This document shows positions 3,532 to 43,092 of a stretch of DNA of 64,000 nt, piece by piece (position 1 is the first letter of the stretch; every line of letters begins with the position of its first letter). The position numbers were made by a program, and so were the translations under genes. Source of the DNA: Streptomyces wedmorensis (GTDB lineage Bacteria > Actinomycetota > Actinomycetes > Streptomycetales > Streptomycetaceae); contig NZ_JNWK01000033.1 in NCBI RefSeq assembly GCF_000716445.1, forward strand, positions 1-64,000, given 5' to 3'. The notes under the pieces are model-generated. The model did not search any database and was not told where the DNA came from. It saw only the letters and a program-made list of their open reading frames with translations.

Positions 3532-3780
3532 GGCTCCACCCCGCGAGGTCCGCCCGCGAAGGCGGTCCACCCCGGAAAGGCGGACCGCTTCCGCGGCGGC
3601 GACGGGGGCGGTTCCTGGACCCGGGTCGCCGCCGTGCCGGGTGGCGCTCCGCAGGCGATGACGGTCGTGGACGCCCGTCGGGTGCTCGTCGCCACCCAGG
3701 ACGGGGGGTACGAGTCCCGGGACGCGGGCGGCCGGTTCGAACGGCGGATGGCGGTGACGTCCGGGAGGGGCGGCCACTGA
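3532..3780 (+). pseudogene. Remnant of a BNR-repeat (F510_1955-type) glycosylhydrolase gene
   Basis: From an in-frame TGA at 3529-3531 the frame runs open to TGA 3778-3780 with no good start or ribosome site. The part from about 3595 reads as a typical BNR/sialidase-like C-terminus (GGSWTRVAAVPGGAPQAMTV, VLVATQDGGYESRD, FERR). Such proteins are around 300 residues and, in my recollection of Streptomyces genomes, often follow the DUF6153-DUF305 pair. Here only about 60 residues of the 3' end survive, and the 5' part would have to fit in the 90 nt after the DUF305 stop, so an internal deletion is likely. Confidence 0.6.
3562..3588 (+). terminator. Hairpin after the DUF305 gene
   Basis: GCGGTCC (3562-3568) pairs with GGACCGC (3582-3588) over a 13-nt loop, 57 nt after the DUF305 stop codon. 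Plausible terminator, moderate stem. Confidence 0.45.
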
Positions 3781-3811: not shown

Positions 3812-5497
3812 TCAGGCCTCCCGGGGACGCCCGGCGGCCGGCTCTCCTCCCACGACCACCTCACCGCCCACGACGACGGTCTCGGCCGTGGTGCCCGGGA
3901 TCTCGTCGGGGGCGATGCGGAGGATGTCGCGGGAGAGGACGACGAGGTCGGCGAGTTTGCCCACCGTGAGCGAACCGCGTTCGTGGTCCAGGAAGTTGGC
4001 GTACGCGGATCCCATCGTGTAGCCCTCGACGGCGGTGGCGACGTCGATCGTCTCGCCGGCGGTCCACGCCTCTCCCCCGCCGGGCGGGCGCCGGGTGACG
4101 GCGGCGTGGATGCCGATCATGGGGTCCATCTCGGCGACGTTCCAGTCGCTGGAGAGGGCGAGGACCGCGCCGGCGGCGTGCAGGCTGCGCAGCGGCCAGG
4201 CCTTGTGCCAGCGGTCGGGGCCGACGTTCTCGGCCCAGTCCTGGCCGGGTCCGGCGATGTCGGGGGCCGCGTGGCGGGGCTGCATGCAGGCGACGACGCC
4301 GAGTTCGGCGAAGCGCGGGGTGTCGGCCGGGTCCAGGCATTCGACGTGGACGATCTGGTGGCGCGCGTCGCGCGGGCCGTTGGCGGCGCGGGCGCGGTCG
4401 ACGGCGTCGAGCACCGTGCGGATGCCCCGGTCGCCGGTGGCGTGGACGAAGCACTGGAAGCCGCGGGAGTCGAGGCGGGTGAGCAGCTCGGCGAACTCCT
4501 CGGGCGGGTAGAAGGTGTCGCCGCGGTGGTGGGAGCAGCCCGCGTACGGCTCCAGGAGCGCGGCGGTGCGCGGTTCCACGACGTCGTCGATGTACAGCTT
4601 GAGCGGGCCGACGCGCAGCCTGTCGTCCGCGAACCGCCGTGCGGCTTGCTCGAATTCGTCCAGGTCCTGGTCGGTCGTGCCGCGCGGGTGGAAGAGCGCT
4701 GCGACGATCCTGGAGCGGAGGCGGCCTTCGGCGCGGGCGCGCTGGAAGAGGGAGAGGTCGTCGAGGGAGTTCTGGGGTTCGACGACGGTGGTGATGCCGT
4801 AGCGGATGGCGTCGTCCAGGCTCTTGGCGAGCCGGCCGTACTGCCGGTCCGGGGAGGCCCAGGGAAGGCCGAGTTCGCGCAGGGCGCGGTGGCCGTCGCG
4901 GGAGAGTCCCTTGACGGCGAAGTCCTTGACGAATCCGGTGGGTTCGCCGGTGGCGGGGTCGGTGACGGCCCGCCCGAAGGGCAGGTCGGTGTGGTCGCGG
5001 TCGACGCCGAGGCGCCGCAGGGCGGCGGTGTTGAGCCAGGCGGTGTGGACGTCGTAGCTGAGGACGAGGGCGGGGGTGTCGCCGGTGGCGGGGTCGAGGT
5101 CGGCCGCGGTGGGCATGCGGCCGTCGGGGACGGCGGAGTAGTCGAAGGCCTCGGCCTCGATCCACCCGGCGTCGGGGTGGGCGGCGTGCCAGGCCCGGAT
5201 GCGTTCGTGGACGGCGTCGAGGGTGCGGGCGCCGGCGAGTTGGACGCAGGCGTCGTCGGAGCCGAGGCGGACGTGGTTGTGGGCGTCGACGAAGCCGGGC
5301 AGGACGAGCCGTCCGCGGGCGTCGAGGACCTCGGTGCCGGGGCCGGTCCAGGCCGCCGCCTCGGCGTCGGAGCCGATCCACGCGATGCGGCCGTCGCGGA
5401 CGGCGAGCGCCTGGGCTTCGGGAAGCGCCGGGTCGACGGTGTGGATGCGGGCCCCGGTGAGGACGAGGTCGGAGGGGGTGGGGGTGACGCTGTTCAT
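3812..5497 (-). CDS. Amidohydrolase family 3 protein (YtcJ-like)
   Basis: 561 residues, the usual length for amidohydrolase_3 enzymes. The metal-binding HxH sits in PGFVDAHNHVRLG near residue 72. Later landmarks are a His-containing FVHATGDRG, the HVECLDP strand, and the C-terminal DLVVLSRDI of the composite beta domain. Relatives hydrolyse amide or N-formyl bonds of small organic nitrogen compounds; the exact substrate is not predictable. It lies 64 nt downstream of an NCS1 permease on the same strand, which suggests uptake and hydrolysis of one nitrogenous compound under the TetR regulator at 7129. Confidence 0.85.
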   Translation of the reverse strand: MNSVTPTPSDLVLTGARIHTVDPALPEAQALAVRDGRIAWIGSDAEAAAWTGPGTEVLDARGRLVLPGFVDAHNHVRLGSDDACVQLAGARTLDAVHERIRAWHAAHPDAGWIEAEAFDYSAVPDGRMPTAADLDPATGDTPALVLSYDVHTAWLNTAALRRLGVDRDHTDLPFGRAVTDPATGEPTGFVKDFAVKGLSRDGHRALRELGLPWASPDRQYGRLAKSLDDAIRYGITTVVEPQNSLDDLSLFQRARAEGRLRSRIVAALFHPRGTTDQDLDEFEQAARRFADDRLRVGPLKLYIDDVVEPRTAALLEPYAGCSHHRGDTFYPPEEFAELLTRLDSRGFQCFVHATGDRGIRTVLDAVDRARAANGPRDARHQIVHVECLDPADTPRFAELGVVACMQPRHAAPDIAGPGQDWAENVGPDRWHKAWPLRSLHAAGAVLALSSDWNVAEMDPMIGIHAAVTRRPPGGGEAWTAGETIDVATAVEGYTMGSAYANFLDHERGSLTVGKLADLVVLSRDILRIAPDEIPGTTAETVVVGGEVVVGGEPAAGRPREA

Positions 5498-5561
5498 GCG
5501 GGGTGGCTCCGTGGCGTACGTGCGGGAAGGGCGGTGGTGTGCGGGGGGGGTGTCGGGCGGT

Positions 5562-6968
5562 TCAGGGGCGGACCGGGGTGACGCGCCCGCGGGCGAGGAG
5601 CACGTACACCAGGGCGGAGACGGCGGCGCCGAGGACGGTGAGGTCCGCGCCGCCGAGGGGGGCGACGAGGGGGCCGGTCCAGAGCTCGGAGTCGCAGGTG
5701 AGGGCGGAGAAGAGCAGGCCCGCGAGGAGCGCGGTCAGGCCGGCCGGGTGCCAGCCCGAGCGGTACCAGTAGGCCCCGCCCGGTCCCGTGTGCAGACCGG
5801 CGGAGTCGTAGGTGCAGCGGCGCAGGACCATGTCGGCGAGGAAGACCCCGCCCCAGGGGGCGAAGACGATGATCAGGAGGGAGAGGAAGGAGAGGAGCGA
5901 GGTGGTGAAGTCGGTGAGGAAGAGGGCGCCGAGGGAGCCCACTGCGGTGACGGCGGCGCTGATGACGATGGCGCGGGCCCGGTTCCAGGGGATGCCGAGG
6001 ACCTGGAGGTTCAGGCTCGACGAGTAGAGCGTGATGATCGAGTTGGTGACGGAGCCGCCGAGGACCAGGGCGAGGAAGAGGGGCTGGAACCAGCCGGGCA
6101 GGAGGCTTTCGGTGCCCGCGACGGCGTCGGTCATGTCGGCCTGGGTGGCGGCGGCCACACCGGCGACGCCGAGGGCGACGGAGGAGAGGAAGCCGCCCAG
6201 GGCACCGCTCCAGGTGACGGCCTTGAGGGAGGTCGTGCGGGGCAGGTAGCGGGTGTAGTCGGCGGGCATGGGGAGGTACGAGAACGGGCCGGCGAGCATG
6301 ACGACGAAGGCGAGGCTCCAGCCGGAGGCGCCGGGTGCGGAGGCGGGGGCGGAGGTGTCGGCGCCGGGCAGGACGAGGACGAGCAGGGCGGCGAAGCCGA
6401 CGGCGAGGACGTAGGCCATCCAGCGTTCGGCGAACTGGACGGTGGCGTGGCCCCAGAGGGCGACGGCGAAGGTCAGCGCGAGGGTGACGCCGAGGGCGAG
6501 GGCCCGGGAGGCGTGCCCACCGTGCCAGCCGAGGTCGGCGAAGAAGGCTTCGAGGGCGAGCGTGCCGACCACCGTGTTGACGATGGTGTAGCCGATGCTG
6601 ACGATCCAGTTGAGCAGTCCCGCGGGCCAGTTTCCCCGGATGCCGAAGGCGGCGCGGGAGATGACGAGGGTGGCGGTGCCGGTGCGCACGCCGCTGAGGC
6701 CGGCCGCGCCGATGGCGAGGAAGGACAGGCCGCCGATCACGACGACGGCGACGGCCTGCCAGAAGGAGAGCCCGAAGGCGACGGCGAGGGCGCCGTTGAT
6801 GACGTACGTGAAGGTGAGGTTCGAGCCGAACCACAGCCAGAACACGTCCTTGGCAGCGCCGTGGCGTTCCGCGTCGGGGATGGGGTCGATGCCGTGCTCC
6901 TCGACCTGGAAGACCTCGTCGGTCGCCGTCCGGCCCGTGCTCACGGGCTCCGTCTCGTGTCCGAGCAC
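5562..6968 (-). CDS. NCS1 family nucleobase/cation symporter (purine-cytosine permease type)
   Basis: About 468 residues with some twelve hydrophobic helices. The opening WLWFGSNLTFTYVINGALAV and the GTATLVISRAAFGIRGNW helix are characteristic of NCS1 transporters, which import nucleobases, hydantoins, allantoin or thiamine-like compounds. Two GTG codons are in tandem (6969-6971 and 6966-6968). The second sits 6 nt from AGGAG (6975-6979) and is preferred. The 39-bp palindrome begins just upstream, covering the promoter. First gene of an operon with the amidohydrolase. Confidence 0.88.
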   Translation of the reverse strand: MLGHETEPVSTGRTATDEVFQVEEHGIDPIPDAERHGAAKDVFWLWFGSNLTFTYVINGALAVAFGLSFWQAVAVVVIGGLSFLAIGAAGLSGVRTGTATLVISRAAFGIRGNWPAGLLNWIVSIGYTIVNTVVGTLALEAFFADLGWHGGHASRALALGVTLALTFAVALWGHATVQFAERWMAYVLAVGFAALLVLVLPGADTSAPASAPGASGWSLAFVVMLAGPFSYLPMPADYTRYLPRTTSLKAVTWSGALGGFLSSVALGVAGVAAATQADMTDAVAGTESLLPGWFQPLFLALVLGGSVTNSIITLYSSSLNLQVLGIPWNRARAIVISAAVTAVGSLGALFLTDFTTSLLSFLSLLIIVFAPWGGVFLADMVLRRCTYDSAGLHTGPGGAYWYRSGWHPAGLTALLAGLLFSALTCDSELWTGPLVAPLGGADLTVLGAAVSALVYVLLARGRVTPVRP

Positions 6969-33931: not shown

Positions 33932-34597
33932 ATGCCGGTGATCTGCGTCGGAGGCATGATCGGAATCGGCAAGACGAGTGTGGCCGAGCTGCTCGCCAAG
34001 GAGCTGGGCAGCGAGGTCTTCTACGAGAGCGTGGAGGACAACCCGATCCTTCCGCTCTTCTACTCGGCGAGTCCCGAGGAGATAGAGGCGAAGCGCTACC
34101 CCTTCCTCCTCCAGCTCTACTTCCTGCAGACGAGGTTCGCCGCCATCAAGGAGGCGTACAAGCAGGGCGACAACGTGCTCGACCGGTCCATCTACGAGGA
34201 CTGGTACTTCGCCAAGGTCAACCACGAGCTGGGCCGGATCAGCTCCCTCGAGATGCAGGTGTACGAGGGGCTGCTCGAGGAGATGATGCGCGAGATCGAC
34301 GGCCTGCCGTACCGCAAGGCCCCCGATCTCATGGTCTACCTCAAGGCGGACTTCGAGACGGTCATGCACCGCATCGGGCTGCGGGGACGCGATTTCGAGC
34401 AGGACGCGGGGCTCGTCGAGTACTACCGCACGCTGTGGTCCGGCTACGACGACTGGGTGCACGAGCACTACTCGGCCAGCGACGTCCTCGTCGTCGACAT
34501 GAACCACACGGACGTGGTGAACAACCCGGACGACGCGGCCCGGGTGGCGCGCGAGGTCAAGGAAGCCCTGGCGGAGAGCGGACGCCGCGTGCTCTGA
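33932..34597 (+). CDS. Deoxynucleoside kinase (dAdo/dGuo kinase family)
   Basis: 221 residues. P-loop GGMIGIGKTS is near residue 7, the ERS/DRS motif LDRSIYEDWYF near 88 and the Arg-rich lid GLRGRDFEQ near 150, the standard dNK plan. It phosphorylates deoxynucleosides for salvage, most likely purine deoxynucleosides by similarity to Gram-positive dAK/dGK. GGGAGAAG precedes the ATG. The neighbours (lectin, lanthipeptide genes) give no functional link. It is convergent with lanM, with only 25 nt between stops. Confidence 0.87.
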   Translation: MPVICVGGMIGIGKTSVAELLAKELGSEVFYESVEDNPILPLFYSASPEEIEAKRYPFLLQLYFLQTRFAAIKEAYKQGDNVLDRSIYEDWYFAKVNHELGRISSLEMQVYEGLLEEMMREIDGLPYRKAPDLMVYLKADFETVMHRIGLRGRDFEQDAGLVEYYRTLWSGYDDWVHEHYSASDVLVVDMNHTDVVNNPDDAARVAREVKEALAESGRRVL

Positions 34598-34622
34598 CCG
34601 GCGCCCGCCCGCGTGCCCTCTC

Positions 34623-37460
34623 CTATGCCGGGGGGAGGGCCAGGAGGAGCGGTGAGCTCAGCCTGGCGTCCGGATGCATCCGCAGGAGCTGGTGGACGAC
34701 TCCGGACAGCCCCGGGAGCAGTCCCGGGGCGAAGGCCTCCTTGGCGAGGCCGCCGACGGGGCCGCGCTGCTCGATGCCGGTGAGCAGCTCCGCGTCCGCC
34801 TGGGCTGCGGACGGCCCCTCGTAGCCGTTCAGGCCGCGCAGGCGGTGGAGGATCTCCCAGAGTCCGAGGTCGCCGTGGCAGAGGGTGTGGCTCCAGCCGA
34901 AGCCCTCGCGCAGGCCGGCCGGGCCCGAGCGGAGCGCGGTGTCCAGGTGGCGCGGGTCGCCGGTGCGCTCGTGGAGGTCGACGGCGGCCAGGCCTATGCC
35001 GGTGCTGCCGTGACACCACGCGGTGGGATGGTCGACCTCTCCCCCGCCCCGCGCGTCGGCCCAGGCCCGTTCGCCGGGCGAGTACAGCGACTCCTCGAAG
35101 TCGTGGGCCAGGGAGCCGAGTTCGTACCACCGGCGCCGTTCGGTCGGGCTGCCGGCGGTGGAGAGGGCGAGCCTGGTGAGCGCCCAGCCGGCGCCGGTGG
35201 AGCCATGGGCGAATCCGCCGATGCCCTCGGGGAACATCACCGTGGACCAGCGTGCTCCGCGGTCGTCGACGACCGCGGTCGCCTCCAGTCGCCGCCCGGC
35301 TTCGGCGGCGACGTCCGACCACCTTTCCCTGCCGGTGAGTTCGGCGAGGTCGAGCAGGGGGACGATCACGCCCGCCACGCCGCCGAGCACGTCGAGCACC
35401 CGGTCCTCGGCGATGAGCTCCGGGGTCAGCAGCGCGGCCCTGGCGCGGGCGCGGTCGAGCGCTTCGGACGTCCCGAGGACTCGGTGGAGGGCTGCCCAGG
35501 TCCACACCTGCGAGGCGATCCCGGTGAACCCGCCGAGCTGGCGGGTCGGTGTGGTGTCCTCGGTGGCTGCCAGCACCTCCAGGGCGCCGGCCAGCACGGT
35601 CTCGACGCCGTCCACCGGGTCGGCCCGGCCCGCCCGCTGCTCCCGTACGTACTCGGCGAGGGCGAGGGCGACGCCGCCCTGGCCGGTGTAGAGGTCCGCG
35701 CCGAGCGGGCGGACGGCCCAGCCGTACTCCGTGAGCACCGGACTGATCCACGTCGCGGTGGCGTCGGTGCCGCGTACGGCCGCCGCGCGGATCGTCTCCA
35801 CGGCCGCGGCCGCCAGGGCGCGACGGCGCCGGTCCAGGTCATCGGTGCTCGGTGACCTGGCGGGCGTCCGCACCCGGTCGGGGAGCTGCCGTTCGTTCAG
35901 ATAGGCACCGACCAGCGCGCTGCGGATGGTGTCGCGCTCGCGGGTGAGGTCCGCCTGCCGCCATCCGGTCAGGAAGGCGGCCGACCGCTGTTCGTCCACC
36001 CGCTCGACGAACACGGGGACGTCACCGACGAGCAGGTCCGCGATCTCCCCGTCGATCACCGCGGGTTCGCGGGGCGCGCCCGGAGCGGCGAGGGCGTTGC
36101 GGTGGAGGATGTCCCGTGCCCGCGCCAGGCCGGCTTCCGGGTCATGCAGCGAGGCCGGGTGCCAGAGCATCCGGCCGATGTCCGTGTACGCCTGCGTGGG
36201 CCGGCGGATCCTGCGGACGGCACATCCGTCGAACACCTTGATCAGCGTGCCGAGTTCACCGCTCGCGTCGAGTTCGGCGAGCGTCCCGGTGAGCGTGTCG
36301 AAACCGGTCAGCACCTGGTCCCAGTGGCGGATCAGGACCGGCTCGGGGCTGGGGTGGTTGCCGGCCGGCGGCAGGTCCACCACGCCGACCTCCATGCGGG
36401 CGGTGTCCAGCCCCCCGTCCGCGATGACCGGGACACGGATCCTCGGCTGCTGGCCGGGCAGCCCGCCCGCGGCCGACAGGTCCACGCCGGCGAGGGCGTA
36501 GCCGTCGGTGCGCAGCGGCAGGATGCCGGTGCGCAGTACGGTGTTGCGGATCGTCCGGGCCGCCTGGTCGACGGCGTCGCCGCGCCCGCTGGGCGGGACC
36601 TCGACGTCGGGCGTGAAGAGGGCCTCGGCGTCGACCACGGCGGGCACCGGGCCGTGGGCCACGAGGTTCTCGGCGTGCAGGTCGGTCCCGCCGAGGAGTC
36701 GCATCACCGCCAGCCATCCGCCCAGGGCGCGGTAGAAGCGGGCGAGTTCCGCCTCGTCCCGGCAGTAGTGGTGGCCGAGGTGCTCGGCCCATCCGTAGCC
36801 GTCCCGGAGCACCACCCTCGGCACGCCCAGGTCCTCGGCGCCGGGGACGGCGGCGACGAAGGAGCGCAGCGCGGCGTCCACTTCCGCCGGCCGCGGCTTG
36901 TACATGACGCTGCCCGTCTCGAAGAGCACCCGGGCCACCGCCCGCCCTCCGTGGTGGGTGTCCCCGCGCGCGAGCTCCAGGGCGCGCAGGGGGCCCGGAT
37001 CGTCGCCGAGCAGGCCGACGACGGCCTCCCTGTCGGCGGCGAGCCGGGTTCCGAGTTCCAGCGCGCCTTCGACGAGGAGGCGCCCGGAGGCGAAGACCCG
37101 TTCACGCAGCGCCGGGTACCGGCGGTGCAGGGTCTCGGCGAAGTCCGGGGCGGAGGCGTGCCGGATGAAGGCGCCCCAGCGGGCGGCCGAGTCCGCACCG
37201 GGCAGTTCGCCGGCGAGGGCGGCGGCCCGCAGTTCCAGCAGGAGCACCCGGTTGAGCCGGAGTTGCAGCGTACGGCCGAGGGCCTCGCGCGTCGCCTTGC
37301 GTAGTACCGCCCGCTCGTCTGCGGACAGCCCGGCGATCTCCGGGATCCGGTCCCCCAGCTCGGCGTACAGGGGGGCGACGAAGGCGTCCACCGGGGCCGC
37401 GAACCATCCCTCGGGTGGTGTTCCGTCGGCCGAGCGGGCCGCTGCCACCGGTTCCACCAT
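34623..37460 (-). CDS. lanM: Class II lanthipeptide synthetase LanM
   Basis: 945 residues, normal LanM size. The N-terminal dehydratase (DUF4135, about 110-480) has GSVMYKPRPAEV (about 185), GTDLHAENLVAHG (about 265) and the late DGCAVRRIRRPTQAY. The C-terminal LanC-like cyclase (about 610-945) has GFAHGSTG (about 750) and the zinc ligands in WCHG (Cys about 816) and LCHGD (Cys861, His862). It would phosphorylate and eliminate Ser/Thr in the precursor, then add Cys to form (methyl)lanthionine rings. AGGAGAGGA lies 7 nt before ATG 37458-37460. It sits 209 nt downstream of the precursor gene. No LanT, protease or immunity gene adjoins. Confidence 0.95.
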   Translation of the reverse strand: MVEPVAAARSADGTPPEGWFAAPVDAFVAPLYAELGDRIPEIAGLSADERAVLRKATREALGRTLQLRLNRVLLLELRAAALAGELPGADSAARWGAFIRHASAPDFAETLHRRYPALRERVFASGRLLVEGALELGTRLAADREAVVGLLGDDPGPLRALELARGDTHHGGRAVARVLFETGSVMYKPRPAEVDAALRSFVAAVPGAEDLGVPRVVLRDGYGWAEHLGHHYCRDEAELARFYRALGGWLAVMRLLGGTDLHAENLVAHGPVPAVVDAEALFTPDVEVPPSGRGDAVDQAARTIRNTVLRTGILPLRTDGYALAGVDLSAAGGLPGQQPRIRVPVIADGGLDTARMEVGVVDLPPAGNHPSPEPVLIRHWDQVLTGFDTLTGTLAELDASGELGTLIKVFDGCAVRRIRRPTQAYTDIGRMLWHPASLHDPEAGLARARDILHRNALAAPGAPREPAVIDGEIADLLVGDVPVFVERVDEQRSAAFLTGWRQADLTRERDTIRSALVGAYLNERQLPDRVRTPARSPSTDDLDRRRRALAAAAVETIRAAAVRGTDATATWISPVLTEYGWAVRPLGADLYTGQGGVALALAEYVREQRAGRADPVDGVETVLAGALEVLAATEDTTPTRQLGGFTGIASQVWTWAALHRVLGTSEALDRARARAALLTPELIAEDRVLDVLGGVAGVIVPLLDLAELTGRERWSDVAAEAGRRLEATAVVDDRGARWSTVMFPEGIGGFAHGSTGAGWALTRLALSTAGSPTERRRWYELGSLAHDFEESLYSPGERAWADARGGGEVDHPTAWCHGSTGIGLAAVDLHERTGDPRHLDTALRSGPAGLREGFGWSHTLCHGDLGLWEILHRLRGLNGYEGPSAAQADAELLTGIEQRGPVGGLAKEAFAPGLLPGLSGVVHQLLRMHPDARLSSPLLLALPPA

Positions 37461-37612
37461 GCTGGGTCCTCTCCTGACGACGGGTGCACGTGATCCGGCC
37501 CGGGCCGGTGGCGCGTCCCCGCGAGCCGCTCCGGCCGGACGCGTCCGGTCGCGGGCGCCCGGATCCCGGCCGCGCGGACCGGGTCGGGTCGGCGTCGGGT
37601 CGGCGTCGCGGG

Positions 37613-37639
37613 CCGGGGGACCCTTCAGGGGTCCCCCGG
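37613..37639 (-). terminator. Terminator/attenuator between lanA and lanM
   Basis: CCGGGGGACCC (37613-37623) pairs perfectly with GGGTCCCCCGG (37629-37639) over TTCAG, starting 30 nt after the lanA stop. A leaky terminator here would give more precursor than synthetase transcript, as in many lantibiotic operons. Confidence 0.75.
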
Positions 37640-37669
37640 GTGTTGCGTGTGGTGCCGTACGGCGGTTCG

Positions 37670-37873
37670 TCAGCAGCAGTAGCTGTGCCACGAGCCGGTA
37701 CAGCTGCTGCACCCGGTGAGCAGCGCCTCGGTGGCGTCGGTCAGCGCGGCCTCTCCGGCCGCTCCGCCCACGTAGAGCGGGCCGGCCGGGTTGTCGGCGC
37801 CGAAGGCCGTCTCGGCCCCCCGGAGCCAGGCGGTGACGATCTCGTCGGTACGGCTGGCGGACATGACGGGCAT
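37670..37873 (-). CDS. lanA: Class II lanthipeptide precursor LanA (mersacidin/lichenicidin-type leader)
   Basis: 67 residues. The leader has the family marks DEIVTAW (about 10-16) and NPAG (28-31), followed by an acidic/Leu segment ALTDATEALLTG. Cleavage is most likely after LLTG (Gly54), giving the 13-residue core CSSCTGSWHSYCC, with four Cys, four Ser and one Thr. Cleavage at the VGG (residue 37) is the alternative and would give a 30-residue peptide. AGGAGG (37880-37885) lies 6 nt before ATG 37871-37873; a second in-frame ATG is at 37862-37864. lanM lies downstream on the same strand. The core is much shorter than mersacidin-group cores, and the first Cys has no Ser/Thr before it. Confidence 0.88.
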   Translation of the reverse strand: MPVMSASRTDEIVTAWLRGAETAFGADNPAGPLYVGGAAGEAALTDATEALLTGCSSCTGSWHSYCC

Positions 37874-38186
37874 GCGGTTCCTCCTACGAATCGCAGGGAA
37901 TGCGCGGAAATACAGAATCCACCGGAGGATGTCCGTCCGAGACCTGCCAGAACCGGTCATTTTTCATTCAGGTGTTCGGTCGCGTCCGGAGATCGCCGAC
38001 GCGCCGCGGGACCCGTGTCCGCCGATCCGTGCGCCGGGACGCGAGCCGAGGTGAGTGGCGGTGCCCCGCCCCGTACGTCCCGGTCCGACGCATCCGCCCG
38101 GACGGAGGCGCCTCGGACGGCGACCGGGCCCGTCAAGTGGCGTCGTGCTCACACATTCGGCCATTCGCCGGCCGCGGCCCGCCGCC
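37874..38186. other. lanA upstream region
   Basis: About 310 nt between the end of the ATP-binding protein gene (38187) and lanA. It holds an AT-rich island (37950-37980, GTCATTTTTCATTCAGG) and, nearer lanA, a candidate -10 (TGTATT on the minus strand, about 37910-37915), but no convincing -35. No transporter, immunity or second precursor frame was found here. Confidence 0.4.
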
Positions 38187-38954
38187 TCAGTGAGCGGGGT
38201 CGTGATCGTGTTCCGGCCCTTGGGTCCCGGTGCCGAGGTAGGCCTCGCGCACGGCGGGGTTCGCGTGGATCTCGGCAGGCGTGCCTTCGGCGAGGACGTG
38301 TCCGAGGTCGAGTACGACGACGCGGGAGCAGAGGTCCATCACGAAGGCCACGTTGTGCTCGACGAGGAGCACGGCGCAGTCGTCGTCGGTGGCCGTGCGG
38401 CGGATGAGGGAGGCGAGTCGCCGGCGCTCTTCTGGGGTGGTGCCGGAGGCGGGTTCGTCCAGGAGGAGGACGCGGGGCGGGTCGGCGAGGGCGCGGGCCA
38501 GCTCGACCATGCGGGCCTGGCCGACGGGCAGGCCGCCCGCGTACGAGTCGGCGAGCGCGTCGAGTCCGCAGTCGTGGAGCACGGCGGCGGCCCGCTGCCG
38601 GTGACGGCCCGCGGAGGGGCGTACGCCGCCGCGCCAGTCCTGTGCGACGACGAGGTTGTCCGTGACGGTCAACTGGCCGAAGAGCTGCTGGCGTTGGAAG
38701 GTGCGGCGGATGCCGTGCCGGGCTCGCCAGGACGGCGGGCGGCGGGTGATGTCCGTGCCGTCGTACGCGATGGCGCCGGCGTCCGGTCGCCGCATGCCCG
38801 ACAGCACGTCGAAGAGTGTCGTCTTGCCCGCGCCGTTCGGGCCTATGAGGCCGCAGACCTCGCCGGGGCGCACGGAGACGGTCACGCCGCGCAGGGCGTG
38901 GACGCCGCCGAAGCGGACGTCGATCCCGCTCGCGTGGAGCAGAGGCTGGTTCAT
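38187..38954 (-). CDS. LivG-type ABC transporter ATP-binding protein
   Basis: 255 residues. Walker A GPNGAGKTT near residue 38; signature replaced by PVGQARMVELARAL (about 155); Walker B VLLLDEPASGT (about 170); H-loop VEHNVAFVM (about 208). The segment IRRTFQRQQLFGQLTVTDNLVV and the ending AEGTPAEIHANPAVREAYLG are typical of LivG ATPases for branched-chain amino acids, urea or amides. ATG overlaps the stop of the permease-ATPase fusion (ATGA). The LSGGQ-like motif is PVGQA, a conservative drift seen in this family. The C-terminus ends in an acidic/His tail. Confidence 0.9.
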   Translation of the reverse strand: MNQPLLHASGIDVRFGGVHALRGVTVSVRPGEVCGLIGPNGAGKTTLFDVLSGMRRPDAGAIAYDGTDITRRPPSWRARHGIRRTFQRQQLFGQLTVTDNLVVAQDWRGGVRPSAGRHRQRAAAVLHDCGLDALADSYAGGLPVGQARMVELARALADPPRVLLLDEPASGTTPEERRRLASLIRRTATDDDCAVLLVEHNVAFVMDLCSRVVVLDLGHVLAEGTPAEIHANPAVREAYLGTGTQGPEHDHDPAH

Positions 38955-41668
38955 CGGCGGACTCCCGTCCCCAGGTACGCCTCGGCGAGCCGGTCCCTGT
39001 CCACTTCGGATCGCGGCCCTGACCAGGCGATCTCGCCCTGTGCGAGGTACGCGACGGTGTCGGCGGCGCCGAGCGCGTCGGCGGCCTTCTCCTCGACGAG
39101 GAGGAGCGCGGTGCCGTGGTCGCGGAGTTCGGTCAGGAGCTGGAAGACCTCGTCCACGACGCGGGGCGCGAGGCCGAGGGACGGCTCGTCGGCGACGAGG
39201 ACGGCCGGTGGTCGCTGGAGGAGCGGGGCGAGGGCGAGGAGTTGCTGCTCGCCCCCGGAGAGGGACCCGGCGACGACGGTGCGGCGGGCGGCGAGCCCGG
39301 GGAACCGCGCGTACACGGCGTCGCGGTCCTCGGCCTCCGTCAGCTGCAGGGCCAGGTTCGCCTCGATCGAGAGCCCGGGGAAGACACCCCGCCCTTCGGG
39401 AGCGAGCCGTACCCCGCGACGCGCCCGGGCGACGGCCGTGTCGCGGGTGGCGTCCTCGCCCCGGACCCGTACGACTCCGTCGGCGGGCCGCAGCAGGCCC
39501 GCCGCCACCCGGCAGAGGGTGGACTTCCCGGCCCCGTTGGGTCCGAGCAGTACCAGCACCTCTCCCGGGCGCACCGCGAGGTCCACCCCGTGCAGCACGG
39601 GCGCGCCGCCGTACCCGGCGCGTACGCCGCTCAGCCGGAGCGCGCTCGGCGTCTCGCCGGGGCCGCCGTCCGTTCCCGGGGCGGTGTTCCCGGCGCCGGT
39701 GGCGTACGCGTCGGCCGTCCGCGCGCGGGGTGGCGCGGACGAGCGGTCACCGGCCCGTGTCGCGGCGCGCCGGGCCGCTCGCCTGGACGGCAGCGCGGCG
39801 CAGTACCCGTCCGGGTCGTTCGCCAGCGCGAGCCCCGCCAGGCCGAAGAGGATCACCGGAAGGTGCGCGGACTCCGTCACGTACGTCGTCATCAGGTGCG
39901 GGACCACGGCGAAGACGAGCCCCGCCACCACCGCGAACTGCGGCCTGCGCACTCCCGCGGCGACCACGACCGCCAGCCACACCAGGCCGGTCATCGCGGT
40001 GAAGTCCGTGGCCGTGATGCGGGTGTTGTACGAGGCGTAGAGCACTCCTCCGAGGCCCGCGAGGCCCGCGGACACGGTGAACAGCAGGAGTTTGGTCCGC
40101 ACCACCGACACCCCGGACGCCGCGGCGGCCTCCGGGGCCGAGCGGACCGCGAGCATGGCCCGGCCCCAGCGGGAGCCGCGCAACCGGGTCAGCAGCGCGA
40201 CGAGCACCGCGCTGAGCAGTACGAGGGCGAGCCCCATCGCCCGGTCGTCGGCCAGGTCCACGGGGCCGGCCACCGGCCGGGGTATCTCCCAGCCGGTGTC
40301 GCCGTTGCGGAGCCGGCCGAGCTGGAAGAGCACCTGGTCCGCCAGGAAGGCGAGCGCGAGCGTGGCCAGGGCCAGTGATCTGCCGCCGAGCCGCAGGGCG
40401 GGCAGTGCGACGACCGCGCCGAGCAGGGCTGCCGCGGCGGTGCCGGCCGCCGCCGCGGCGACGAAGGGCCAGCCGTGACTCATCAGCAGCCCCGCGACCA
40501 GAGCGGCGCCGGTCACGAACGTCGCCTGGGCCAGGGACACCATCGCGCCGAGGCCGGTGACGACCGTGAACGACATGAACACGAGCCCGATCGCGAGGCC
40601 TTGGGCCAGGATCCCGCTCCAGAAGGGCGTGGTGACGGTGTAGAACGCCGTGCCGAGCAGGGCGCCGGCGACGACCCACCCGCCCCAGCGGCGGCCCCAC
40701 CCCTTTCCGGCGAGGTAGTCGACCGGTGGCGGGTCCGCGGCCGCCGTGCCCGCCGCACGCTGCCGCCGGACCAGGACGACGAGCCCGGCGAAGAGGACGA
40801 GGAACGGCACGGCCGTGCGGAAGCCGGTGATGTCGTCCGTGAAGGACGCGTACCCCGCAACCAGGTTCTGGAGCACGCCGAGCCCGAGGCCGCCCGCGAA
40901 GGCGAGGGGCACCGACACGAAGCGCCCGAGGACCGCCGCGGTGGCCGAGACGAACAGGAACAGCGTGTAGTCGTGCGCGGAGAGGCCGAGGAGCGGGGTG
41001 GCGAGGACACCGGCGAGGCCCGCGAGACCGGACGACAGCATCCACGCCATGGAGGACAGCCGGTCCGCGCTGATGCCCCGCAGCTCGGTCAGGGTGCGGT
41101 CGTCGACCGCCGCCCGCAGTCGCAGTCCGAGGTGGGTGTGCCGCATCAGGGCCCACAGTCCGGCCGCCGCGACGGCCGTGGTGATCCAGGTGATCAGCTG
41201 GTCGGAGTCGACGCCCACACCGTCGATCGGCTGCCAGGACACGGCTGGGCTCGGCCCGACGCCGGGCAGCCCGAACTGGTTCTCGGCGGGCAGGACGGGG
41301 GCGCCTGCCCGCTCCAGGAGTTCGACCGTCCACCGCCCGGCCGCGGGCAGCGCGACCAGCAGACCGATCGTGGCCACGATCTGCGCCGTCTGGCCGACCC
41401 CGGCCAGTTTCCTGAACATCAGCCGGTCCAGGACACCGCCGAGGCCGGGCGCCACCACGCACACCAGGAGCAGCGCGGTGGGGACGGCCGGCCAGCCGAA
41501 GCCGGAGTGGAGCTCGTAGTACGCCAGCGCGCACAGGTAGGCGGTGGAGCCGTGCGCGAAGTTGAACACCCCGGAGGCGGAGTACGACAGCACGAGGCCG
41601 GTCGCGAGCAGCGCGTACAAAGCGCCGGAGACCAGTCCGCTCAGGACGAAGCCCAGCAGGTCACCCAC
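38951..41668 (-). CDS. LivH-LivM-LivF fusion: two permeases plus ATPase of a branched-chain-type ABC transporter
   Basis: 905 residues in one frame without an internal stop. About 1-300 is a LivH permease (GALYALLATGLVLSYSASGV, FNFAHGSTAYLCA). About 325-630 is a LivM permease (GLAIGLVFMSFTVVTGLGAM, SLAQATFVTGAALVAGLL, GVSVVRTKLLLFTVSAGLAG). After a Thr/Ala/Gly linker, about 665-905 is a LivF ATPase: Walker A GPNGAGKST, signature LSGGEQQLLALAPLL, Walker B VLVADEPSLGL, ending LAEAYLGTGVRR. Normally these are three genes; two-part LivH-LivM fusions are known, but the triple fusion is unusual. GTG 41666-41668, 12 nt after the binding-protein stop. Confidence 0.9.
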   Translation of the reverse strand: MGDLLGFVLSGLVSGALYALLATGLVLSYSASGVFNFAHGSTAYLCALAYYELHSGFGWPAVPTALLLVCVVAPGLGGVLDRLMFRKLAGVGQTAQIVATIGLLVALPAAGRWTVELLERAGAPVLPAENQFGLPGVGPSPAVSWQPIDGVGVDSDQLITWITTAVAAAGLWALMRHTHLGLRLRAAVDDRTLTELRGISADRLSSMAWMLSSGLAGLAGVLATPLLGLSAHDYTLFLFVSATAAVLGRFVSVPLAFAGGLGLGVLQNLVAGYASFTDDITGFRTAVPFLVLFAGLVVLVRRQRAAGTAAADPPPVDYLAGKGWGRRWGGWVVAGALLGTAFYTVTTPFWSGILAQGLAIGLVFMSFTVVTGLGAMVSLAQATFVTGAALVAGLLMSHGWPFVAAAAAGTAAAALLGAVVALPALRLGGRSLALATLALAFLADQVLFQLGRLRNGDTGWEIPRPVAGPVDLADDRAMGLALVLLSAVLVALLTRLRGSRWGRAMLAVRSAPEAAAASGVSVVRTKLLLFTVSAGLAGLGGVLYASYNTRITATDFTAMTGLVWLAVVVAAGVRRPQFAVVAGLVFAVVPHLMTTYVTESAHLPVILFGLAGLALANDPDGYCAALPSRRAARRAATRAGDRSSAPPRARTADAYATGAGNTAPGTDGGPGETPSALRLSGVRAGYGGAPVLHGVDLAVRPGEVLVLLGPNGAGKSTLCRVAAGLLRPADGVVRVRGEDATRDTAVARARRGVRLAPEGRGVFPGLSIEANLALQLTEAEDRDAVYARFPGLAARRTVVAGSLSGGEQQLLALAPLLQRPPAVLVADEPSLGLAPRVVDEVFQLLTELRDHGTALLLVEEKAADALGAADTVAYLAQGEIAWSGPRSEVDRDRLAEAYLGTGVRR

Positions 41669-41680
41669 GTGACGCGCCCC

Positions 41681-42925
41681 TCAGCCGAACGGGATGGGCG
41701 GGTAGCACTTGAAGGGCACCGCCACCTCGTACCGCCCGTTCTTCAGCCGGACGAGCGCCCCGCAGCCGAAGCTCTCCTTCTTCCCCTTGGGTTCGGCGCG
41801 GTCGCCCACGAGCGTGCCGCTGTCGGAGAATCCGGCCGCGGCGTTCTGGAAGGACTCCACGGTGAGGTCCTTGCCCGCCTTCCGGGCGATCGAGAGGAAG
41901 AGGTCGGCGCTCATGTACCCCGTCATCATGTGCATGTTGAGAGGCACGTCCTTGCCGGCGGCCTTCTTGATGTCGTCCTTGAACTGCCGCATCGCGGGGC
42001 TGTCCGACTCGAAGGGCTGGAACTGCAGCAGCACGTGCACTCCGTCCAAAGCCTGCTTCGTCGCGTCCTTCGCGAGCAGCCCCGGGTCGTAGTCCGTCGG
42101 GTCGGTGATGAGCCCCTTGTAGCCGGACCGTTTGAGTGCGGTGAACAGGCCGATGTTGTACGGCGTCTGCATCACGGAGACCACGGCGTCGGGCGCGCCG
42201 CCGCCGGGGCCGGATCGGAGGATCTCCTTGGTGTACGCGGACCAGTCGCTGGGCATCGAGGTCGCCGGGACCACGGCCTTGGCGTACGCGACCTGGAAGC
42301 CGGCCGCCTTGAAGCCCCGGGTGAAGGTACGGATGCCGAACTTGCCGGCGTCGTTGTCGCCGGCGATCAGCGCGACCGACTTTCCGCGCGCGCCGCCGAG
42401 GACGGCCGCGAGGCTCTCGGGCCAGGTCTGGTTGAGCGTGCCGCCGGGTGTCGGGACGAGGCAGCCGTTGAAGCCGTAGATGTGCGCCGGTCCGCAGAAC
42501 GAGGGGAGGGTGCCCCAGCCCACCGTCGGGACCTTCTGACCGTCGAGGAAGTCGGCGCCGGCGAAGGTGACCGAGCTCATGGGCGAGACGGCGAAGACCT
42601 CGTCCTGCTGGACGAGCTTGCGGGCCGCGGCCAGGTTCCTGGCCGGGTCCTGGCCGTCGTCCTCGGCCCCCAGGTACTGGATCTTCCGCCCGTTGACGCC
42701 GCCCTCGGCGTTGGCCCGGTCGTAGCGGGCCCGGGCGCCCAGGTCGGTGTCCTTCTTGGAGTAGCCGCTGGCGGTCGTCATGGAGACGATGCCGCCGACC
42801 TTGATCGCGTCGGCGGTGACTCCGCGTACGGACGAAGGCGTGCTTCCGCCGCTGGAGGCGGAGTTGCAGGCGGTGACAAGGAGCAACGCGAACGCGGCGG
42901 CGATGACGCGCAACGGTCGAGGCAC
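41681..42925 (-). CDS. LivK-type ABC transporter substrate-binding lipoprotein
   Basis: 414 residues. Lipoprotein signal with lipobox VTAC (Cys about 20). The type I periplasmic-binding fold of the LivJ/LivK family: IKVGGIVSMTTASGYSKKDT, YDRANAEGGVNGRKIQYLGA, ARKLVQQDEVFAVSPMSS, then VAGFQVAYAK-like GFQVAYAKAVVPATSM. GGAGGG lies 7 nt before GTG 42923-42925. First gene of livK-livHMF-livG. The ligand may be an amino acid, amide or aromatic acid; the binding residues do not settle it by eye. Confidence 0.9.
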   Translation of the reverse strand: MPRPLRVIAAAFALLLVTACNSASSGGSTPSSVRGVTADAIKVGGIVSMTTASGYSKKDTDLGARARYDRANAEGGVNGRKIQYLGAEDDGQDPARNLAAARKLVQQDEVFAVSPMSSVTFAGADFLDGQKVPTVGWGTLPSFCGPAHIYGFNGCLVPTPGGTLNQTWPESLAAVLGGARGKSVALIAGDNDAGKFGIRTFTRGFKAAGFQVAYAKAVVPATSMPSDWSAYTKEILRSGPGGGAPDAVVSVMQTPYNIGLFTALKRSGYKGLITDPTDYDPGLLAKDATKQALDGVHVLLQFQPFESDSPAMRQFKDDIKKAAGKDVPLNMHMMTGYMSADLFLSIARKAGKDLTVESFQNAAAGFSDSGTLVGDRAEPKGKKESFGCGALVRLKNGRYEVAVPFKCYPPIPFG

Positions 42926-42992
42926 GGGCGATCCCTCCGTCGGGTGACCCGCATTCTGCGACCGAACTGATGAGCCGTCAATAACTGATGCA

Positions 42993-43009
42993 GCATCATT
43001 TGATGATGC
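42993..43009. promoter_or_regulatory. Dyad in the divergent livK/LLM promoter region
   Basis: GCATCAT-TTG-ATGATGC, perfect 7-bp arms, about 70 nt upstream of livK, in a locally AT-rich stretch with several CTGATG/TGATGC half-sites from 42966 onward. Candidate operator for a GntR- or MarR-like protein; none is encoded nearby. Confidence 0.5.
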
Positions 43010-43092
43010 GTCAGGCACACTGCGCCGCCGACGCGGCCGGCCGCCCACCGGGCCGCGGGGAATCCCTCCCGCCCCCGCTTGTTGAAGCCTGT

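Follow-up and report, generated by a model that had tools for sequence, protein, structure and literature searches.

The lanA-lanM pair

We analysed a window, that is, the whole stretch of 64,000 nucleotides at positions 1-64,000 of Streptomyces wedmorensis contig NZ_JNWK01000033.1 (assembly GCF_000716445.1), for a pair of genes on its minus strand: lanA, for a putative lanthipeptide precursor, and lanM, for a class II lanthipeptide synthetase. The lanA frame (37670..37873, minus strand; start codon ATG at 37873, last base of the stop codon at 37670) encodes 67 amino acids (aa) with the C-terminus CSSCTGSWHSYCC, and a strong ribosome-binding site, AGGAGG, can be read ahead of it at 37880..37885 on the same strand. 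lanM (34623..37460, minus strand; ATG at 37460, stop ending at 34623) encodes 945 aa; lanA lies upstream of it on the same strand, separated by a spacer of 209 nucleotides (nt).

The precursor matches PF19740, the DUF6229 family, at 97 bits (cut-off 25, E 6.1e-28), with its residues 7-67 covering profile positions 2-62 of 62. Since the 67-aa frame follows the profile to its very last residue, it is more than a chance reading, and its assignment rests on this match together with the co-occurrence with LanM described below. The synthetase (searched as the translation of 34623-37463) scores 486.7 bits against TIGR03897, lanti_2_LanM, whose cut-off is 304, and also matches PF13575 and PF05147. It aligns to the structures of LicM2 (6st5) and CylM (5dzt) with the KPR, DLHxEN, WCHG and second CHG motifs intact. 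The pair thus has the hallmarks of class II: a dehydratase domain fused to a LanC-like cyclase with its zinc motifs, and beside lanM, on the same strand, a precursor with a Ser/Thr/Cys-rich C-terminus. A preliminary description of this DNA had proposed an intact LanM with a 67-residue precursor 209 nt upstream, and frames, motifs and both family models bear it out.

A two-gene class II lanthipeptide cassette is the best explanation of these data (probability about 0.87). The locus is a real, conserved DUF6229 class II lanthipeptide pair whose own product is uncharacterised; its kind is already known, because DUF6229 proteins were identified in 2022 as class II lanthipeptide precursors (PMC9576775). 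In that work a Dyella DUF6229 precursor, expressed with its LanM in E. coli, underwent four dehydrations and formed three (methyl)lanthionines, as judged by mass spectrometry and nuclear magnetic resonance; the authors concluded that DUF6229 proteins are lanthipeptide precursors and named the Rhodanobacteraceae group rhodanocins. In Lysobacter, DUF6229 proteins make up 21 of 27 unique class II precursors (PMC11451712). The peptide is therefore not an isolated case. Searches of the open-licence literature with CSSCTGS, HSYCC, SCTGSWHSYCC, CSSPSGS and GSWCC returned no relevant paper, so that the peptide itself, as had been suspected, appears undescribed within that literature; it may be listed in the tables of PMC7268733, a large-scale catalogue of lanthipeptide precursors.

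Distribution, linkage and possible mobility

Across the genus, PF19740 exceeded its cut-off in 24 of 392 genomes, and in none of 14 control genomes; a class-wide sample that includes the S. wedmorensis genome itself gave 6 of 394. One further genome of the genus (G180) was rejected as a carrier and left out of the 24, as its match is weak, falls under the cut-off and lacks NPAG and CC. When the same 392 genomes were searched with LanM alone (E <= 1e-80), the identical 24 genomes were recovered, which strengthens the link between precursor and synthetase. All 24 keep the precursor frame; its loss where lanM persists, which the preliminary description had named as grounds for abandoning the locus, was not seen.

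Scanning GTDB genomes turned up 49 named loci, most of them in Streptomyces (S. gardneri, S. narbonensis, S. bambusae, S. echinatus and others) and the rest in Kitasatospora, Wenjunlia, Amycolatopsis and Kutzneria. lanM lies directly downstream of the precursor on the same strand in all 50 loci (the 49 and the window), two of these LanMs being cut by contig ends and one being in pieces. The precursor frame was recognised by pattern in 48 of the relatives and by eye in one (L099); its presence in all 49 follows by construction, because the relatives were found by their precursor. Among 47 LanMs of these loci, KPR, DLHxEN, WCHG and two CHG motifs are present in every one, and [VI]D[AL]E in 44. 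Beyond genome scans, a protein search yielded 22 relatives of the precursor and a profile search 199, with named sources that include Streptomyces, Kitasatospora, Streptacidiphilus, Embleya, Archangium, Myxococcus, Lysobacter and Dyella; one leader type thus unites Actinomycetota, Myxococcota and Gammaproteobacteria. In a genome of another family from the class-wide sample (G422:C14:322516-322929; loci L117 and L122), two DUF6229 matches start 240 bases apart on one strand, apparently as tandem precursors.

Nothing else travels with the pair. We clustered 408 genes from the 50 loci, requiring 35% identity or more across 60% of the longer protein. The flanks taken in reached 6 kb, or less where a contig ended, and the neighbour genes of the relatives were predicted with a crude GC-frame gene finder. 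In this clustering, no family besides lanM and lanA occurred in more than three loci. The commonest Pfam families among 87 immediate neighbours from 47 loci, with those longer than 900 aa or cut left out, were APH (5), TetR (4) and ABC_tran (3), and neither a LanT with C39 nor a LanP was among the 25 commonest of the 132 families. In the window, the scanned neighbours of the pair encode an ABC transporter of the branched-chain type, a deoxynucleoside kinase and a lectin, with no LanT, LanP or LanFEG adjoining, in line with the minimal locus, free of the usual protease and transporter, that had been proposed. Two points are unusual: every locus examined consists of just these two genes, with neither protease nor exporter, and the Cys-rich end of the precursor is constant.

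A relative of the same genus (G015) delimits the cassette. It retains both flanks (90.5% identity for 702 bases around the kinase, 88.9% for 4,791 bases spanning the ABC genes) and lacks the pair; by blastn of the window against this locus (L115), the missing unit spans 34573..38226. We conclude that the pair was gained or lost as one piece of about 3.65 kb. In its place G015 carries genes for a PF08241 methyltransferase and for a lamin-tail-domain protein (PF00932) at L115:10584-13078. The S. wedmorensis genome holds no close copy of this methyltransferase (best match 41% over about 110 residues). Insertions may be frequent at this site. A scan of 34400-38400 for repeats of at least 16 nt found none at the two ends of the cassette, only pairs inside it. 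PLSDB gave no match for the window precursor and, for LanM, only matches below 60% identity, the best of them on Embleya replicons. One of these, NZ_CP108777.1 (Embleya sp. NBC_00896, L149; a linear replicon of 3.13 Mb listed as a plasmid), carries a distant DUF6229 precursor with the end CGTACSGSRTRPCC just before a LanM (motif 3532-3654, LanM 4001-6604). Distant relatives are therefore carried on large secondary replicons.

Genes, family, co-occurrence, linkage and cassette boundaries are all established here. The spacer holds one further feature, a GC-rich hairpin with an 11-bp stem and no T-run (37613..37639, minus strand), which is a possible attenuator or mRNA stabiliser. Its stability was equalled by 8 of 40 dinucleotide shuffles in the window, and spacers are over-stable across the family rather than in the window taken singly: at most 2 of 40 shuffles matched the hairpin in 9 of the 12 spacers of type A and in 24 of the 35 of type B (types defined below). 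A role in keeping lanA mRNA above that of lanM is plausible. Scanning the locus for promoters, terminators and Rfam families yielded no match, and no terminator was found by pattern.

The likely modified region and its proposed maturation

The precursors fall into two core types, CSSC[TS][GA]S....CC (type A) and CSSP[ST]GS.GS[WYF]CC (type B), and the LanM tree separates along the same line: type A (11 rows) and type B (34 rows) each form one branch with 100% bootstrap. This tree is midpoint-rooted, omits L056 (in pieces) as well as L062 and L076 (at contig ends), and has two long-branched rows of other core types. Family counts were taken from the 120 proteins listed among the 199 profile-search relatives, 115 of which end in CC. 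For the last 13 residues we selected 90 of them with Cys at -13, Ser, Gly or Thr at -12 and a CC end, dropping the other 30. Their commonest residues give C-S-S-[CP]-[ST]-[GA]-S-x-x-[ST]-[YWF]-C-C, of which only positions 3-11 are informative, because the proteins had been chosen on their ends. Position 5 is Ser or Thr and position 7 Ser in all 90, and position 10 is Ser or Thr in 70. Position 4 varies, with Cys in 57 proteins and Pro in 31, so that this Cys is dispensable; the probable number of thioether rings is then three for type B and as many as four for type A.

The ratio of nonsynonymous to synonymous substitution rates (dN/dS) indicates purifying selection on both parts of the precursor: 0.19 for the leader and 0.17 for the last 13 residues in eight close type A members, and 0.18 and 0.06 in 36 type B members.

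The preliminary description had placed the core in these last 13 residues, starting at Cys55, and the family speaks against this. GG, GA, GS or AG directly precedes the Cys55 position in none of the 120 proteins. Further upstream, residues 36-37 are GG in 97 of 119 readable members (EG in 21, GA in one), with 30 residues following in 93 of the 119, and in Dyella relatives the similarity to the window precursor breaks off after about EAALTD. Taken together, the missing cleavage pair at Cys55, the GG upstream and the end of the Dyella similarity suggest that the modified region more likely comprises some 21 residues (Ala47-Cys67, 37673..37735, minus strand). As drawn from the family alignment and column counts, this putative region follows EAALTD and holds seven Ser/Thr and four Cys. 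The statement that the first Cys has no Ser/Thr before it then holds only with the 13-residue guess, as Thr48 and Thr53 lie upstream. Among the 90 proteins with Cys-Ser at this place, 89 carry a Ser or Thr within the preceding seven residues, 57 of them at -2, so Cys55 need not lack an upstream partner.

From these features we infer modification, rings, processing and function as follows. LanM would bind the leader of LanA (DEIVTAW...NPAGPLYVGG...EAALTD) and would phosphorylate and dehydrate Ser/Thr in the last 21 or so residues, most likely Ser56, Thr59 and Ser61 and perhaps also Ser57 and Ser64. Addition of Cys thiols to the dehydrated residues would yield (methyl)lanthionine rings, with Cys66 and Cys67 most likely closing onto two of Ser56, Thr59 and Ser61. 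Cys55 might close onto an upstream Thr or, as in the Cys8-Ser14 ring of rhodanocin, onto a downstream dehydrated residue. Because the pair is accompanied by neither a protease nor an exporter, leader removal and export would fall to proteins encoded elsewhere, and the product is most likely a secreted peptide, weakly antibacterial or signalling.

The cluster lacks the marks of canonical processing, with neither a C39 LanT nor a LanP among the scanned neighbours and no GG or GA directly before Cys55; the upstream GG remains a candidate site. The S. wedmorensis genome has two further full LanM matches and two C39 peptidases, the only ones found in it, all on another contig (C5) and none at the lanAM locus. 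C39 peptidases occur in 17 of the 24 carrier genomes and were not found in the other seven, a set that includes G224, only 88% complete; among the 22 carriers with completeness of 90% or more and contamination of 5% or less, none was found in six. Since no protease or LanT adjoins the pair and seven carriers have no C39 found, the leader is probably removed by an unlinked protease. Such proteases are known for lanthipeptides (PMC8960859, PMC10885120), about a third of whose clusters have no protease genes (PMC8960859). On contig C5, at about 166-178 kb (L116), two LanM and two LanT-like C39 proteins make up another class II lanthipeptide system of this genome, possibly for a two-component lantibiotic. 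A LanC-like match on contig C10, at about 7.5-8.6 kb (L103), marks a further lanthipeptide synthetase, whose upstream part partly matches class IV/III models (342-aa piece; NF038150 at 545 bits vs 650).

A different route to maturation would be cleavage and export in trans by the C39 LanTs of another cluster, acting at GG 36-37 and releasing a 30-residue product. The two peptidases on C5 beside two other LanMs, the prevalence of the GG and of the 30-residue remainder, and the 17 carriers with C39 all fit this. The seven carriers with no C39 found speak against it, as do the 22 of 119 members with EG or GA there and the failure of LahT150 to cleave the Dyella DUF6229 peptide despite a possible double-Gly (PMC9576775). 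We consider processing by these LanTs unlikely. Slightly less doubtful, and still well short of even odds, is a bolder form of the two-gene cassette: a mobile unit of about 3.65 kb without protease or exporter that would rely on a general host protease, with the C-terminal Cys pair closing two overlapping rings, the first Cys closing in reverse, and a role that is perhaps signalling or intracellular rather than antibiotic.

The missing exporter might also mean that the LanM-modified peptide stays inside the cell and serves in redox chemistry or metal binding through its vicinal Cys-Cys, a pair kept in nearly all members; in the 50 loci examined, the neighbours of the pair include no recurrent family of exporters or proteases. 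The constant Ser/Thr and the conserved cyclase motifs of LanM argue instead for rings that use the Cys, and those of the Dyella product all lie in rings (PMC9576775), which makes an intracellular role of this sort improbable. Least probable by far is that the adjoining ABC transporter (38187-43048) and the kinase (33932-34597) belong to the system and supply export or modification. The ABC genes do lie directly upstream on the same strand. Yet G015 retains both without lanAM, and neither was found at above 50% identity in the six other type A loci checked, so we ruled them out as parts of the system. Transporters of the branched-chain type with a substrate-binding protein are, moreover, importers. 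The transporter contains a 905-aa open frame (38951-41668, minus strand) whose single chain combines an ABC ATPase domain with two matches to branched-chain permeases. Next to this frame lie another ATPase (38187-38954) and, at 41681-43048, a substrate-binding protein. The deoxynucleoside kinase (dNK, PF01712; 33932-34597, plus strand) was present in 4 of the 24 other genomes of the genus in the sample of relatives, and in none of its 16 more distant ones.

Several observations weigh against the two-gene lanthipeptide cassette that we favour. Over all 12 type A loci, dN/dS rises to 0.61 for the leader and 0.44 for the last 13 residues, an estimate that is weak because synonymous divergence is low (0.19-0.20). 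The lanM of G224 (L056) carries in-frame stops or shifts in a draft assembly, and six other carriers have one TGA within the matched LanM stretch. The ring pattern of rhodanocin is not transferable, because the characterised member has a different core. With only two genes and a clean boundary in one relative, the pair should be easy to express, and with its seven carriers in which no C39 was found it offers a practical case for the maturation of class II lanthipeptides without a linked LanT or LanP.

Comparison with known lanthipeptides

Rhodanocins, from Dyella sp. 333MFSha (LanII; PMC9576775), are the nearest characterised system: they too belong to PF19740, are modified by a LanM and remain uncut by LahT150. 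Other Dyella proteins share the leader plan of the window precursor (W, NPAGPLY, EAALT) and its CC end. In the DUF6229 literature found, a determined structure is given only for the Dyella product (PMC9576775, PMC11451712), whose rings are Thr6-Cys11, Thr12-Cys23 and Cys8-Ser14 on a 23-residue core, and which, as released by AspN, showed weak activity against Klebsiella at 126 µM. Compared by description, the order of Ser, Thr and Cys in the window precursor differs from that of the 333MFSha core, and the rhodanocin pattern does not appear to fit the CSSCTGSWHSYCC end.

In Lysobacter, a protein of the same family (P0098) ends in CSSCSASGGGYCC, close to type A, although its leader has EG rather than GG and its N-terminus is shorter. 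The Lysobacter study describes several DUF6229 families with differing expected topologies (PMC11451712).

With the mersacidin/lichenicidin group, to which the preliminary description had tied the leader, the pair has the LanM class in common and perhaps a likeness of the leader, but profile searches did not bear out the label. With the E limit set at 10, the window precursor matched no NCBIfam model (the filters of HMMER remove most matches with E over roughly 0.1), and 17 members of set A2 matched only two unrelated chance families, although UniRef names one type B relative (P0068) mersacidin/lichenicidin. The window pair, moreover, has no adjoining LanT or LanP, and its precursor lacks the mersacidin TxTxEC motif described in PMC7268733.

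Within Streptomyces, LanII-56 of Streptomyces sp. NRRL S-350 (PMC9576775) is a class II product with three dehydrations and three rings, which was cleaved by GluC and was inactive on the ESKAPE panel. Compared by description, these numbers would fit a three-Cys precursor of the CSSP type.

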